Below are positions 23,975 through 46,348 of a stretch of 60,267 nt of DNA, one piece after another. Origin of the DNA: Aureobasidium sp. EXF-3400 (lineage: Eukaryota; Ascomycota; Dothideomycetes; Dothideales; Saccotheciaceae); contig SWBL01000317.1 of NCBI GenBank assembly GCA_024195585.1, forward strand, positions 1 through 60,267. Direction: 5' to 3'. Each line of letters opens with the position of its first letter. The stretch's first letter is position 1. Under the pieces are notes generated by a model. It searched no databases. It had not been told where the DNA came from and worked only from the letters and a program-made list of their open reading frames with translations. Both the position numbers and the translations under genes were made by a program.

Positions 23975-24836
23975 GGCGAAGTTTTGCTAGTCGACCGGGA
24001 GGATAGTTGTCGGAATAGTCGTCTCGTCGTCTCGTCTCAGTGGAAAGAGCGTCCGACGCAGCGAAAATCAGCAAGTGCGTGCGGAGGTCCAAGCGCACTG
24101 ACGAGTTCGGATGCCGAGGTTTAACCGCCAAGACTCGACTATCAGCGTGAACAATTCATGCCACTAATGAACCGCTGAATTGACAAAGTTGTATCTACTG
24201 TTGTCTTGGACTCTCATTTCGATCGGTGTATTCCCAGGATCCTTCATCATCTCCTCCCCATGTGCTGAATTCTGTCACGCTCCTCGCTCTCACGACAACA
24301 CGTACGCGGCGCTGGAACTACCAAAATGCACGGTTCTTTCCAGACGGTAGTGAAGTCCATAGAGAGTCGATAATATTGCGACTCTCGGTGGAAACTTCTC
24401 ATGTACTAAAGGAACTGTGCGTTTCTACAGCTGTCTGCGTGACATAATTATGCACATGGGGAGGCCTCATCTGAGGCTGTTGCACAGTCACCTCCACCAG
24501 ACGCATACTCTACTTGACACTTCGCGTACATATCAAGGCTTTGCGCCAATACAATGCTCTGCTTTACACATCTAGGTCAACTACATCAAGCCTTTTTGCC
24601 TGTTATGCGCCCAAACTCCATGCGATGCCCTGCGATCACAAGACCCATATATAGCCCAAGACGCCGTGGGTTTCTCTAATGAACAAAAGAAAGACAACCC
24701 CCACTGGAATATTGCAATCATCTTTCATCATGCATTTTGTAATGTGCTCCTCCATCTAGACCGAGTGGTCCGAAAAGGGTTATAAACGGGCACAAGGAGA
24801 TACAACAAAAAGGAAAAAGATCATGCATGTTAGCTC
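23975..24836. other. Intergenic region eL18 promoter / carrier 3' end, holds repeat copy A
   Basis: The 862 bp contain the eL18 upstream region, the 212-bp element at 24253-24464 (listed separately) and the 3' UTR of the carrier gene. Nothing else is recognised. Confidence 0.5.
24253..24464 (+). repeat. 212-bp hairpin element, copy A
   Basis: This intergenic element has a collinear partner at 37780-37991 (168 of 212 positions identical, no indel). The ends form an inverted repeat of about 28 bp: 24253-24280 pairs with 24437-24464, beginning with a perfect 13-bp arm CCTCCCCATGTGC / GCACATGGGGAGG. Inside, 24324-24339 pairs with 24409-24424 (16 bp with G-U pairs), and 24356-24392 forms a hairpin with an 8-bp GAGAGTCG/CGACTCTC stem. 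It has no coding capacity. It may be a MITE-like element or a structured noncoding RNA. No clear target-site duplication was found (TCATCT occurs on both sides, but offset by 2 nt). Confidence 0.85.
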
Positions 24837-25963
24837 TTAGACTTCTGGTCTGAGACCCACGAAGAAGTCGCGTGTGAGCTCGAAACTCAGCCAACTGCTG
24901 GCCATACTGGGAGCGACCTTGAGGAGGTTAGGTGCAATTCCCTTGTACAAACCCTTGATGCCTTCGTGCTTGACGATGACTCTGACGGCATCGAAGATCG
25001 ATTTGTACTGGTAACCCATTCCGGACATGGTGTTGATCTGGAATCTGCGGCGAAGCAAATCACTGTAGGTCTTGATCAGCAAAAGCTCGTTCATTTCTAC
25101 ACCGTGAAGCTTACAAAGGATATGTGCATGTTTGCGCGATGGCTCCTGAGATAGCACCTGCACCCAATTTTCCAACAGAGCTTGGGTTGTCCGAGCCTTC
25201 TGGGGTAAATGCTTCGCGGACCGATTCATAGACCATGAAGTTCAACCCAACCTTACACAAGTCAGCTCTATGATCGGATTCAAAAGTCAGAATGCCCTTA
25301 CATATGGTGCAACACCAGCAACTGTTGGGACTATGCCTCGGTATAGAGCAAAGAAACCGCCCTCTGTTTTATACATCTTGACCAATGTCGGCCACATGCC
25401 TGGTAGCTTCTTTCCAGCTTCTGCTTTTTCTAGGCCTGCAAATGAGGCTGACTGAATCGAGAGTCGTGTGCGGACGATATCGAGGGGGTAAGTTGATGTC
25501 ACAGAGGTGATACCAGCGATAGCACCACACGACAAGCGTTGGAGCGCAGTGAGAGGCGCACCAGGAGTGTCCTCAAAGAACTAGAATGGGTCAGCGAATG
25601 ACCGTAACCACGAACGAGAGCTGGAGGCGCATTGCATACACGCTTGTAAAAATTGTAACTTCCAAACTGTACAGCCGAGTAAGGCACGATGCGAATGCAG
25701 TTTGTGCCATTGCCTGCCATGAATCCACGGAATCCTTCTTCACGCCACATCTTGCCCAAAGCCTTGCCTATCGACATTTTATATTCTTCTCGGCCAACGC
25801 TCTGAATCTGGAAGAGAATCTTGAGGCGCTCGAGCGGCGACACGACGGTTCGCGACACGGCACCCGCCATACCTCCAGCAATGAAGGATGCGACTACCGG
25901 TTGTGAGAGCCATTCTTTTGTACCGTCCCACGGCTGCGACGGTACTCCAGATCCGGCAGCCAT
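24837..25963 (-). CDS. Mitochondrial carrier, YPR011C-like (APS/PAPS transporter family)
   Basis: Four exons, complement(join(24837..25062,25115..25251,25302..25580,25640..25963)), 321 aa. Introns are 59, 50 and 52 nt with GT-AG ends. The three carrier repeats carry the signature motifs PLERLKI, PLDIVRTR and PFDLLRRR. Close features to yeast YPR011C include AGGMAGAVSRTVVSPLERLK, GNGTNCIRIVPYSAVQF and YPLDIVRTRLSIQSASF. The yeast protein moves adenosine 5'-phosphosulfate and 3'-phospho-APS across the inner mitochondrial membrane. Substrate transfer to this protein is by similarity only; coenzyme A-type carriers are close relatives. Confidence 0.88.
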
Positions 25964-27236
25964 TGAAGATTCGGTCGAAAACGTCCTTGAGAGTATCTGA
26001 GATATGTCTGTTCGACTAGAGATGACTCGACTGGAGGAGATTGGGTCGGAGACGCGTCGACGAGTGAACGGTCTACTCTATCGCGCTCTCGTGTGTGCCG
26101 ACTGTTTCGCTGGTGCTCGTGGAAGGACGATGGTGTTGCCGGGTTGACGCCAAGTCGCGATGCTGAAAACACGTCGAGGAGAGGTCAAGGTGGATGTTGT
26201 TAGGATACGTAGATAGCTGAGTGATAGCGAGCGTGAGGACAAGGCATTGGTCCACGAGAAGTAGCCGTGGTTGTGATGACCAGAAACCCGGTTGATTCAG
26301 GTTCGTTGCTGCGCTGTTACGACTTAATCCCGAGTAACGTGGGTCGCGCTAGTTTTTGCCCAGTCACTGTTCCTTCTCGTCCCTCGGCCTTCTCTCCTTC
26401 TTATCAACGGGCAATACCTTGAGAGACAAGTGCTACTGGTCCGCCTCTTTATAAGCCTCCATCGCTCGAAGCCGATATAATTGCCAGGGGCTGACGAGAT
26501 CATGAGTACAGAAGCCACAAATCACGAGCACTAGTGACCGACAGCCGAACATGGCTCGTCCTCCAGTCATCAGCACACAAACACATCCAACGTGCTCTTG
26601 GTGTGACATCTAATCCCGCGTCTTGTGAGCCTCTACTTGTTTGTCATCTCTTTTCAAACATTCTTCTCCTCGTGTACAGCATCAATTGCACACGACATCT
26701 CTCATATTTCAAGTGCTGCCTCGAAGCTTGAACTCGATCTGTGGAGATCCTGTGGGGTACTTCGTCGGCTCTGTCGGGTGCGTACGGGTTGCTGACCATC
26801 GAAGTGCGGAGGAGCTTCATGATCTTCCTTCTGCTCTGAACTCAACTTGTCCATCTCCGAGAACTCAATGTTTGCTTCTTTGAGTATTGATATCACTGTG
26901 TCTGGCTTCCGGAGGGTCGGGCCCTAGTGCACAAGCCTCTTGCGATATCTGAGTTGAAATGCCGACACAACAGCCTCGAGGAGGGGAACATGTCTCTTAA
27001 TGTGCTGATGTTTCTCAGAGCTTCAAAGAGGGATGTTTGAGCTATCAGAATACACAGTCATTCGTGCCCTTCAATGGCAATGGATGGTGCACTGCTCTAA
27101 AAAGTGTACTTTATGAACTCCAGCACACAGGAGAGGAAGTATAGGTAGGCGACATATGAGAGTACATGAACGTGATAACTAAACAGACAGACTTCAACAA
27201 CCCCACACAAAAACAGTGACAAAAGAAATACACAGA
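25964..27236. other. Intergenic region upstream of the carrier gene (1.27 kb)
   Basis: This stretch holds the carrier promoter and the 3' region of the H1-like gene. One open segment on the minus strand (26702-26938) has some protein character and is listed separately. An ACGCGT hexamer occurs near 26052. Confidence 0.4.
26702..26938 (-). other. Orphan open segment, possible gene remnant or small gene
   Basis: About 78 codons are open after a TAG, encoding a hydrophilic segment with block KPDTVISILKEANIEFSEMD, then Gln/Glu/Asp-rich sequence to a TGA. It has no in-frame ATG near its start, so it would need an upstream exon; a CACTAG just before it could act as an acceptor. I do not recognise the protein. 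It may be chance. Confidence 0.2.
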
Positions 27237-28313
27237 CTACTCTGGGTTGACCGCACTCCTCATGGCCTCAACAGCATTAGCAGCAAGCTCCCAAGTCCTA
27301 CTCATGACACTCTGCTGCTCATTATCAGCTTGATACCCACTATCATTACTCGTCATCTTCTTTCCCGGACTCTTGGACCTGTTGCTGCCTCCAGTAAACG
27401 CATCCTGGACTTTCTTCACTGGACTCGCATTAACGATGGTGTTCTGCGCTTTCTTGACTGGGGAGCTGATGGCACTGACGTTTCCGTTTCGGCTTCCATT
27501 TCCGTTTCTGTTCCCATTGCCATTGCCGTTTCGGTGCTGCTGGTACTGCTTTTTCTCTTTCGCCTCCTTGACCTTGAACTCTTCAATGATCTTGGATCTC
27601 TCCTTTTCAATCTCTTTCCAGTACAACATATCGTTGATATCTTCGATATGAGGGACTTCTCCTCTCTCCTGTTTCTCATACATGTCTTGGATCATTTCCG
27701 CCATCTGCTTCTTGCTGTATTGGGCTTCGAGGGTCCCAATCCTTTTCTCGTGGGCGATATCCCATGCTTGCTCATCGACGTTTGAACTCCATTCGAGGAA
27801 GGCTCCGAAGCTGCCGATGCTCTCGAATGCGCCTTTGGCTAAGCCTTGCGCATACATGACTTGCAGTTGTTGGATGAATTGATCAGTGTACCGGGAACCG
27901 ATTTCGGCGTATACCTTACTGCGCTCCCTTTCCTCTGCCCTTCTAGCGTCGATCTTTGCCTGGGCTGCAGGACCCAGTGGGTTGCTGCCATCAGCTTTGA
28001 CAACCCACTTCTCGTACTTTGGAGCAGCTGTCTTGGGGGCAGCCTTTTTTGTGGCAGTCTTTTTGGGAGCAGCCTTTTTGGTAGCAGCCTTCTTGGTAGC
28101 AGCCTTCTTTGGCGCAGCCTTCTTAGGAGCGGCCTTTTTGGTGACTTTGGCGCCTGTGACTGACTTCTTGGGAGCGGCTTTCTTGGTAGCAGTGGTCTTC
28201 TTCTTGGGCTTCGGAGCAGGAGCCGAAGTTGTAGCAGTGGTGGTTGGCTTGGGGGTTCGTTTTGGCCTCGACGACGCAGCGGTGCGTACTACTGTTTTTT
28301 TCTTGGGTGCCAT
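27237..28313 (-). CDS. Lys/Ala-rich (histone H1-tail-like) protein of unknown function
   Basis: Single exon, 358 aa. Residues 1-100 form a very basic tail made of KKAAPKKAA / KKAATKKAA-type repeats, like the C-terminal tail of histone H1. No winged-helix H1 globular domain follows. Instead there is a charged helical region from KYEKWVVKADGSNPLGPAAQ through RYTDQFIQQLQVMYAQGLAK and AFLEWSSNVDEQAWDIAHEK to a coiled coil (YWKEIEKERSKIIEEF), then an Asn/Gly repeat (NGNGNRNGNGSRNGN) and a C-terminal tail with two SPVKK motifs. SPVKK/SPxK motifs are typical of DNA minor-groove binding and CDK sites. A chromatin role is inferred from composition. Confidence 0.75.
   Translation of the reverse strand: MAPKKKTVVRTAASSRPKRTPKPTTTATTSAPAPKPKKKTTATKKAAPKKSVTGAKVTKKAAPKKAAPKKAATKKAATKKAAPKKTATKKAAPKTAAPKYEKWVVKADGSNPLGPAAQAKIDARRAEERERSKVYAEIGSRYTDQFIQQLQVMYAQGLAKGAFESIGSFGAFLEWSSNVDEQAWDIAHEKRIGTLEAQYSKKQMAEMIQDMYEKQERGEVPHIEDINDMLYWKEIEKERSKIIEEFKVKEAKEKKQYQQHRNGNGNGNRNGNGSRNGNVSAISSPVKKAQNTIVNASPVKKVQDAFTGGSNRSKSPGKKMTSNDSGYQADNEQQSVMSRTWELAANAVEAMRSAVNPE
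28020..28200 (-). repeat. Degenerate tandem codon repeat for KKAA(P/T) units
   Basis: The sequence repeats a ~12-15 nt unit (gcagccttyttggtr on the plus strand), encoding the Lys/Ala-rich tail. It is a coding repeat and could change length by slippage. Confidence 0.7.
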
Positions 28314-36813: not shown

Positions 36814-37594
36814 ATGACTTCATCTTTACTGTCGTCGCATCTGGACCAGATCTCTTTGTGTGCCTCGTCCATATCCGACCTTCCATTCTCGCGACCGAAA
36901 CAGTTCACCAATGCCCTTCTCACCCACCATGACATTACCGCCCTGATCAGAGACACCGAACAACACGAACGCGCCCTGTTTTCTATTGCTCCCCCTCCAG
37001 TACCTTCCAAGTCGCAAATTCAGCAAATATCTTCGGCCTTCACCACTTCAGCGTCTCGATCGATAGCTACAGCAAATACTCAAAGACCCCCTCGTCGCCA
37101 TACCGCTGTCGCTGCAGTTCTTGGCGGTGACTTGTATCGCAAGACTAGAACTGGGCACAGCGGAAAACAGTCCAAGGGTGATATCGATGTCGAGCTTCTG
37201 CTGCGAGGTGCAGAGAAACTTTGTAGAGTCTAGTACGTTCACCTCTCCAGGAGTCTGTCTGTCGGTACTAACATTCCTAAGCCCCATTCCTGGTGCTTTC
37301 GACAAGATCGGCGAGTTGAGAAACCGATATGCCCAACTAAGCGCCAACATTGCTCACTACGAAGAACGAGTTGCAATGCAATCTGCCGAACTAGACCATC
37401 TGCACCAGAACCACGATGGTTACGATCAAGACGACTATGACTATCAGGATGACCACATCGAGCCTACAGTCCATATGACCGAGGAGGACCTGGTAGATGA
37501 GGAAGAGGAGATTCGCGCGCTCGAGGACAAGAAGAGAGCACTCCAATCCAGAGTCAGCAGTATGGAAAAGGACATCGAAGGCCTTGCTAGATGA
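36814..37594 (+). CDS. SPC34: DASH/Dam1 complex subunit SPC34
   Basis: Two exons, join(36814..37232,37282..37594), 243 aa. The 49-nt intron splits a Tyr codon in CRV-Y-PIPGAFDKI. Recognisable family text includes SSHLDQISLCASSISDLPFS, FTNALLTHHDITALIRDTE, and YPIPGAFDKIGELRNRYAQL. The C-terminal third is a coiled coil (DEEEEIRALEDKKRALQSRV). Spc34 is part of the fungal DASH complex that forms rings on kinetochore microtubules and joins chromosomes to the spindle. It is found only in fungi, which supports the organism call. Confidence 0.92.
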
Positions 37595-37779
37595 AAAACA
37601 ACCGGAAACTGGCAAACAGACAAACCTCGGAAGCAACCACCGAATCCACTCGACCAAGTAAAGCACACACACGCTACAGGCAAATCCCGTTCGTTGAACG
37701 ATCGCCTCCAATAAGCCTGTACACATCCCGGAGAGCATATGAGCATCTCAAATCCAAGCCACAAGGTCAGTGTTCGCTC

Positions 37780-37991
37780 CCTTTCCATGTGCTAAATTCT
37801 GTCACTCCTCTCGCTCTCACGACCACACATACGTGGTGATAGAGCTATCAAAATGCATAGTTTCTTTCATACGGTAGTAAGGTCCAGAGAGAGTCGATAA
37901 CGTTACGACTCTCAGTGGATGTGATCTATCTATCAAAGGAACTGTGCATTTCTATAGCTGTCCGCGTGACAAAACTTTGCACATGGGGAGG
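37780..37991 (+). repeat. 212-bp hairpin element, copy B
   Basis: Collinear with 24253-24464 over its full length: same strand, same 212 bp, no indel, 44 substitutions (33 transitions). Its ends pair as 37780-37807 with 37964-37991, allowing G-U where copy A has G-C. The inner helix is 37851-37866 with 37936-37951, and the terminal hairpin is 37883-37919 with loop ATAACGTTA. An added helix AGCTAT/ATAGCT (37843-37848 with 37954-37959) lies on the same axis. It sits 186 bp downstream of SPC34. No target-site duplication was seen. Confidence 0.85.
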
Positions 37992-38197
37992 TCGGAACTG
38001 TACAGACGAGCAGCAGAGCAACGGTTTACATGACCAGCTTGGCCCGTTCGTTGTCTCCCCTTCGTTTGGCACGATTTCGTTGCTACGTTGTCAACAAAAA
38101 GTCACAAAGACCAAACAGGCATGATGATGGCAACAAATTGACGGCAACAGGGAATGAACCATGGTTGTCATCGACCCTATCGTCAGTTGGGAACTCG

Positions 38198-39614: not shown

Positions 39615-40255
39615 AGTCTGCATCAGATCTCCGTCGCAGTCAGTCTCGACACTATCATGAAAACCCTTACGACAGCATTATTGCGAATTCGATGCATGCA
39701 GCTTGATAGCTCCTTCCTATCTCATCTTTCTAAATCCATGTTCTGTGTTGGTAACTTAGATTTTTTGTTCAAGTCAAGATTGCAGAGAGTATGACCCTGC
39801 TCTCGAGTATATTGTCCTCGCATCCAATCTACTTCCTGAATTATGGCTACATACACACAGTCTAATGATCTTGGATACATGACTGCTGATTGCCTCAGAC
39901 TCTCGGGATTCTAGAGTACTGTAGGCATTCCCATGGCTATGTTGCTTTGAAGGAGCTTCATCAGTCTGAGAACGGTGCAAGTCATCACAGACTCAGAGCA
40001 TACTCGAGGTTTCGATTTCTATTGAAAAGCGTAAAAACAATGAAATCAGACCGAATCTTGTTTATGTCTTTGAGACTGCTTAAAGTACCCTAAAGATACA
40101 GATCTCAGGTACGATCCATGTCTGGTAGATATATCGGTATAGTCCATCCTTGGCATCAAGCAAGCGGAGAAGTCACCGATGACATCGTCAAAGATTCCAT
40201 GCCGATGGAAACCCTCTCGCCTTCACACCTAGCTATTCAACACACAACCACAACA
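39615..40255. other. Intergenic region WW protein / COQ9
   Basis: These 641 bp between two plus-strand genes show no gene. The COQ9 frame is open for 46 codons upstream of the chosen start (from 40118), with no conserved text. Confidence 0.4.
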
Positions 40256-41077
40256 ATGTCTCAAATACTACGCACATCAGCAACTCGCAAACTCTTGCAA
40301 CCCATCCTCCCCCGCCTCGCCACAACACGCACATACTACAGCTACGAAACACCGCTCCCACCACCATACCCACCCACCGAAACCGCAATCCTCTCTGCAG
40401 CACTATCCCATGTGCCCACCACCGGCTGGACAAACCTCTCTCTCCGCAATGGCGCCCGCGACGCAGGATACCTAGATGTATCCACAAATCTATTCCCCAG
40501 AGCCGAGTTTGAATTGGTATTGTACCATTTACGGACACAGCGATTGGGATTAAAGGATCGCGTGCAATTTCCCGAGGAAGCAGCTTTGGGGGCAACAAGG
40601 AAAGTCAAGAGTTTGGTTATGGAGAGGATAAGGGGGAATGTAGATGTAGATGTACAGCAAAGATGGCAAGAAGTAAGTTTCCACACCCCCTCCTCACACC
40701 CTCGCAAATGTTGCTTTTACTAACCTGAGTCGCAAAAACAACAGGCACTAGGTCTCATGTCCCTAGCCGGCAACATCCCCTCCTCCCTCCGCGAACTCTT
40801 CCTCCTCGCAGACGAAATCTGGTTCCTCGCCGGCGACGACGCAGTAGACATGTCCTGGTACACCAAACGCGCAACTTTAAGCTCCATCTACGCAGCCACA
40901 GAAACATACTCGACTACAGATCAAAGCACAGACTTTAAAGATACCGAAGAGTTTTTGGATAGAAGACTAGAAGAGGCGAGGGCAGTGGGTGGTGCGTGGA
41001 GGAATGTTAATGAGTGGTTGGGTTTCCAAAGGATGGCTACTGTTAATATGGCGAGGAATTGGGGTGTGAGGATATGA
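40256..41077 (+). CDS. COQ9: Ubiquinone biosynthesis protein COQ9
   Basis: Two exons, join(40256..40672,40745..41077), 249 aa; the 72-nt intron is GTAAGT...AACAG. The N-terminus MSQILRTSATRKLLQPILPR is an Arg-rich mitochondrial targeting peptide. The mature part starts near ILSAALSHVPTTGWTNLSL and continues with ARDAGYLDVSTNLFPRAEFE, SLAGNIPSSLRELFLLADEI and the conserved DAVDMSWYTKRATLSSIYAA. The end is NEWLGFQRMATVNMARNWGV. Coq9 binds a lipid intermediate and helps Coq7 hydroxylate demethoxyubiquinone in the CoQ synthome at the inner mitochondrial membrane. Confidence 0.93.
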
Positions 41078-45884: not shown

Positions 45885-46348
45885 ACATGTGCTCTACTTT
45901 GGGTTCTTTGGAAGGGAAACGGAAATTGGGAAATGGAAGATACCATGGGTCGGTCAAACAAGGCACAGGCGGTGAAATTGGAACGCAATATGTACAGTTG
46001 ATAGTAATCTTTTGAAGCTCGAATCGATTCCAATCACAATCAGCAGCTTTGCCTCTCCTCTCCGTGTGCCACAGTCAGTAACGACGGAGCGGAAGAGATA
46101 CACTAAACTTCCAAGAGAACAGAATAGTATGCATCGAGAAACAATGGGTTCTCGGCTTTCTTTGGACACATCTTCAATCTAGACATTATTGTGCATTCTT
46201 ATAGCGCACAACGTACTGATTTACTAACAAGAGATACCTCTGATACTTGTTCCTCAGCCTTCCAAAGCTATGGTTAGGGGTACATACACAGCCTTTCAAT
46301 ACATCCAAAAGCCCAAACGTCTAGACATTATCCTTCATTATAACTCAT
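45885..46348. other. Convergent 3' intergenic region UBR7-like / NIF3
   Basis: The 464 bp between convergent genes contain no gene. The sequence is moderately A/T-rich and unremarkable. Confidence 0.4.

Follow-up and report, generated by a model that had tools for sequence, protein, structure and literature searches.

The Fusarium mimp elements are about 200–220 bp long, have terminal inverted repeats (TIRs) of about 27 bp and no coding capacity, and are bordered by a TA duplication. MITEs of the Stowaway/Tc1-mariner type have a target-site duplication (TSD) of 2 bp, which is TA, a pyrimidine-rich start of the TIR and a hairpin fold. Classical Foldback elements contain tandem subrepeats in long TIRs and have TSDs of about 9 bp, and the termini of CACTA (EnSpm) elements begin with CAC. 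For Mycosphaerella graminicola (Zymoseptoria tritici), the consulted part of the published account reports 2-bp TSDs in nine of 13 MITE families (eight with TA and one with CT), some families that have a common TIR and TSD with different internal sequence, and ten families without RIP dinucleotide bias (PMC4522978).

The window, that is, the whole stretch of 60,267 nucleotides of Aureobasidium sp. EXF-3400 DNA analyzed in this study, contains two hairpin elements, copy A at 24253..24464 and copy B at 37780..37991. Their coordinates, lengths (212 bp each), orientation (both on the + strand), identity (168/212) and lack of any indel between them, which had been recorded in an earlier note, were all reproduced, as were the folds of both copies at −95.9 and −92.7 kcal/mol; both copies also appear to lie between genes, as had been described. 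Copy A adjoins a gene that we take to be an L18-type ribosomal protein gene, and copy B directly follows a region in which homeologous conservation (89%) ends near 37,594. The similarity between A and B ends at the borders of the 212-bp unit. No stop-to-stop frame of at least 60 codons is located wholly within A or B, and six such frames span their borders. The best relative of copy A is on C88 (87% over query positions 10-212), and copy B has 95% identity to copies on C1, C118, and C140.

Copy A is bounded by a left TIR of 28 bp (24253..24280, + strand; first 13 bp CCTCCCCATGTGC), identified as an inverted self-match at 89%, and by a right TIR (24437..24464, − strand), identified by the same inverted self-match and the terminal 13-mer; the first 13 bp are exact at both ends. 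Two pairing registers are present: the outer arms pair with i+j=213, and an imperfect inner palindrome at 24314..24434 (element positions 62-182) pairs with i+j=244. The 33 bases at positions 29-61 have no partner on the right side. These two registers indicate that the rod is a DNA palindrome. A third, decayed relative belonging to a sister subfamily begins with the left end CCTCTCCGTGTGC at about 46057..46206 on the + strand (74% over 151 bp to L013:450-663); its right end was not found, and we regard it as a truncated element.

A search of the genome with the 212-bp unit, as the earlier note had called for, was run at the DNA level over 53.4 Mb in 717 contigs and revealed a repeat family in at least 44 distinct places, at least 41 with copy A as the query and at least three further ones with copy B. 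The terminal 13-mer CCTCCCC[A/G]TGTGC has 93 + 140 = 233 exact occurrences in the genome, and its reversed control has none; a longer terminal pattern with up to three mismatches occurs 89 + 84 times, again with no occurrence of the control. Thirty-three of 42 rows were kept in a multiple alignment, which excludes nine truncated or very decayed rows and the three further places found with copy B, and which retains five rows whose left ends are degraded (L011, L018, L029, L031, and L033). The 33 copies have pairwise identities of 67–96%, indels are present among them, and many copies contain small indels or are missing ends. The divergence without indels described previously thus holds for A against B but not for the other copies.

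Two-ended elements were collected from the window and loci L011-L088 (ends within 2 mismatches, 100–600 bp), which gave 51 elements, 42 of them 205–220 bp long; the remaining nine measure 182 (two), 196, 229, 339, 376, and 382 (three) bp. Identical flanking dinucleotides, and thus a 2-bp TSD, were identified in 32 of the 51, compared with a random expectation of 3.2; when left flanks were permuted against the right flanks of other elements, the mean was 4.62 and the maximum 15 in 20,000 permutations. Within the A/B subfamily, 15 of 26 elements have the 2-bp duplication (a count taken from the flank table). The duplicated dinucleotide varies (AT in six, CT in four, TA in four, TC in three, GA in three, and others in 12 of the 32). 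A TSD of 3–10 bp was found in none of the 51 elements, and the 2-bp duplication is missing in 19. Comparison of the flanks identified TC on both sides of copy B (37778..37779 and 37992..37993). The flanks of copy A, CT and CC, show no match and no 2-bp duplication, and its duplication is thus absent or decayed. Beyond the duplication itself, T is found at position −5 in 28 elements, C at −3 in 21, G at +3 in 27, and A at +5 in 27, which suggests that the 2-bp duplication lies within a palindromic target, T-N-C-NN-G-N-A. Twelve of the 51 elements combine three or more of these four letters, vs. 0–5 at shifted positions, and the target preference is therefore moderate.

We conclude, with a probability of roughly 0.95, that the hairpin elements constitute a MITE family, non-coding, with TIRs of 13–28 bp and 2-bp duplications, that is likely mobilized in trans by a cut-and-paste transposase. 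A MITE was one of the options offered in the earlier note, and it is borne out by copy number, common ends, 2-bp duplications, indels and missing ends, relatives of 182–382 bp bearing those ends, and the lack of both elements in the homeologous contig; decayed copies with indels and target-site duplications, which that note considered would make the element an ordinary MITE, are what the genome contains.

Relatives of 376–382 bp with the same ends were identified at L064:201-582, L058:6913-7294, L054:201-582, and L073:508-883. These are long imperfect palindromes with folding energies of −173 to −202 kcal/mol, and L064:201-582 aligns with its own reverse complement at 67%. One arm aligns over 127–148 bases with the right half of copy A (from position 66, 71 or 86 to 212), and the other arm aligns over 43–49 bases with the end of copy A, except that in L058 it aligns instead with 27 bases of the inner part. 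With one of these relatives as the query, 64 matches were listed, in which both strands of a place are counted. The 376–382-bp elements are possibly larger forms of the MITE family.

No transposase or autonomous partner was seen in 20 loci at mostly single-ended terminal repeats. Of the open reading frames (ORFs) of at least 150 codons in 11 of these 20 stretches, ten were scanned with Pfam, which gave ordinary host domains in seven and no domain in three, and the others were judged by eye. Inspection by eye of 93 ends and 100 of the other 140 yielded no isolated pair of inverted ends 1–8 kb apart. Two decayed remnants of a Harbinger-type transposase (PF13359) are located at C386:41563-41943 and C62:40266-40688, and in the one neighboring stretch read (L091) there was no terminal repeat beside the remnant.

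As a possible mechanism for the MITE family, a transposase encoded elsewhere, and possibly lost, would read the terminal repeats and cut at the CCTCCCC ends, and the element would be inserted into a break staggered by 2 bp, with T-N-C-NN-G-N-A sites moderately preferred. The 212-bp form may be a rearranged derivative of a 376–382-bp foldback element, since one arm of the palindromes of that length corresponds to the right half of copy A and the other, in most cases, to its end. That the element is a DNA palindrome would account for its rod-like fold, and the copies would later have decayed through point mutations, mostly transitions, and small indels.

Compared by description, mimp is similar to this family in size, TIR length, and lack of coding capacity but differs in its TA duplication and TIR sequence. 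Stowaway and Tc1-mariner MITEs have in common with it a 2-bp TSD, a pyrimidine-rich TIR start, and a hairpin; the duplication here is TA in 4 of 32 cases, and assignment to Tc1-mariner/Stowaway was rejected on this criterion. The long imperfect palindromes of 376–382 bp resemble Foldback-type elements, whereas the TSD here is 2 bp. PIF/Harbinger or Tourist elements, with a 3-bp TWA duplication, were rejected because none of the 51 elements has a 3-bp match, and hAT and Mutator, with duplications of 8 to 10 bp, because none has a match at 8–10 bp. CACTA (EnSpm) elements have duplications of 2–3 bp, and the 2-bp duplication alone would fit, but the ends here are CCTCCCC. The MITEs of M. graminicola, as described in the consulted part of PMC4522978 and compared by description rather than by sequence, likewise come from a Dothideomycete, are short, and combine TIRs with a lack of coding capacity; in those nine families that have a 2-bp TSD it is mostly TA, whereas the dinucleotide varies here. 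No description of the family was found among the listed titles on fungal, Dothideomycete, and Aureobasidium MITEs or on the terminal sequences. In kind, it is an ordinary MITE family.

Conservation is uneven along the element. Among the 33 copies, mean column identity is highest in the inner helix (72-87/157-172; 0.927), and it is 0.903 in the hairpin at 104-140, 0.891 in the terminal 13 bp, and 0.785 in the neighboring arm (88-103/141-156). Terminal repeats alone do not explain why the inner helix is conserved above the terminal 13 bp and the neighboring arm. One possible explanation, which we advance tentatively, is that transposition requires the inner palindrome itself, whether as an internal binding site for the transposase or as a DNA hairpin, so that active lineages have retained it. 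The high identities of the inner helix and of the hairpin are consistent with this, as is the alignment of copy A from 66, 71 or 86 onward with the 376–382-bp relatives. However, the copies are related by descent, and the conservation may stem from a few source copies; moreover, because compensatory changes are not in excess, it would be the sequence rather than the pairing that has been retained, unless few source copies account for the pattern. Transitions make up 640 of 923 substitutions. RIP was considered as a cause of the divergence and rejected, as there is no preference for CpA (C-to-T rates of 0.101 in CA, 0.085 in CC, 0.116 in CG, and 0.090 in CT).

It is doubtful that these elements represent a transposon lineage outside the superfamilies compared here, which would be characterized by the variable 2-bp duplication, the palindromic T-N-C-NN-G-N-A target, and the CCTCCCC termini, and in which the inner palindrome would act as a second recognition signal.

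Less probable still is that the MITEs are read through from neighboring promoters into hairpin transcripts that would be processed to small RNAs, as has been reported for some MITEs. Copies A and B lie between genes and have strong folds, and human hsa-mir-548 genes have been reported, in the part of the source consulted, to be derivatives of Made1 MITEs (PMC1784062); the sequences of the copies, however, show neither a strand preference nor selection on structure.

The earlier note had also suggested a structured transcript under structure constraint, based on seven helix positions that differ between A and B and still pair. These differences are real (pairs 4/209, 5/208, 75/169, 79/165, 80/164, 84/160, and 85/159) and all seven still pair as RNA, but each is a one-sided transition between a Watson–Crick and a G-U pair and none is compensatory. 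Four more differing pairs within the 1-28/185-212 arms had not been counted, since the earlier count was confined to the outer 13-bp arm and the inner helix: 17/196 and 27/186 are paired in A and mismatched in B, 20/193 is mismatched in both copies, and 15/198 changes from a mismatch to a pair.

Selection on the RNA of one strand should cause G·T (G-U in RNA) to exceed A·C mismatches. In a young group consisting of B, L020, L023, and L028, G-T does exceed A-C (7 vs. 3, 6 vs. 2, 6 vs. 3, and 8 vs. 3), and this group, as one line of descent, may be the source of the earlier impression of preserved pairing. RNAalifold predicts 31 pairs on the + strand, eight of which have some change on both sides, and the pairs that it chooses contain 105 G-T vs. 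27 A-C on the + strand and 22 vs. 182 on the reverse strand; this G-T excess arises because the pairs are chosen by energy, and fixed registers were therefore used. In the fixed registers, the 2750 cells of the 33 copies comprise 1770 Watson–Crick pairs, 214 G·T, 227 A·C, and 539 other combinations, and at the 57 mostly paired positions there are 87 G·T vs. 93 A·C. Alignment of the copies to their own reverse complements gave 119 G-T vs. 136 A-C, with more G-T in nine of the 33 copies, more A-C in 17, and equal numbers in seven. Both strands fold about equally (means of −80.7 and −84.2 kcal/mol).

Covariation across more copies, which had been proposed as a check of the RNA claim, showed no excess over shuffles in the 33 copies: six pairs changed on both sides vs. 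6.6 in shuffles, 90.0% of cells paired vs. 90.2%, and the covariation score was 0.084 vs. 0.085. This score is above the 0.027–0.065 obtained when the structure is slid by 1–3 columns, as expected because the structure was derived from the same sequences, and the slid structures have 6–16 pairs changed on both sides compared with six for the structure itself. No Rfam match was found in the window at the gathering threshold. Despite the seven pairs retained through one-sided changes, it is thus highly improbable that the elements are a structured RNA, or a family of RNA genes, with a hairpin held by selection on the transcript, given that G-T and A-C mismatches are about equal over 33 copies and covariation is at the level of shuffles.

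The genomic setting of the MITE family was also compared. The DNA to the right of copy A (window 24465-25100) matches a single other place in the genome, at 82% in C186, and the DNA to the left of copy B (window 37000-37779) has one other match, at 85%, also in C186 and about 13 kb away. Since both homeologous stretches (39673-40266 and 26908-27509) lie in C186 about 13 kb apart, the segments are collinear with the window. The element and the terminal repeat (up to three mismatches) are absent in both C186 stretches (901 + 851 bp). The homeologous intergenic DNA flanking these sites has diverged so far that neither the junctions nor an empty site can be defined to the nucleotide. Exact ends of the group are present at other positions in C186, and elements may have been lost from C186.

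The region therefore has a second collinear version at 82–85% identity, as in a diploid hybrid, and A and B are present in one version only. A protein encoded in the window has as its best hit, among the matches listed, an Aureobasidium pullulans desaturase with 91% identity. According to the consulted part of PMC11905612, diploidy was found in 30 of 49 A. melanogenum strains, whose genomes are about 50 Mb in size and average 50% GC. The 53.4 Mb of this assembly and the homeologues at 82–85% would be consistent with a diploid or hybrid Aureobasidium.

The elements show that a DNA palindrome gathering transitions can look like a pair-preserving hairpin when two copies are compared, and comparing G·T with A·C mismatches in strand-neutral registers provides a simple test for claims of pair preservation. 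They also add, from an Aureobasidium-like genome of two diverged halves, a group of MITEs whose 2-bp duplication varies, and insertions found in one half of the genome only could help to date the activity of this group.
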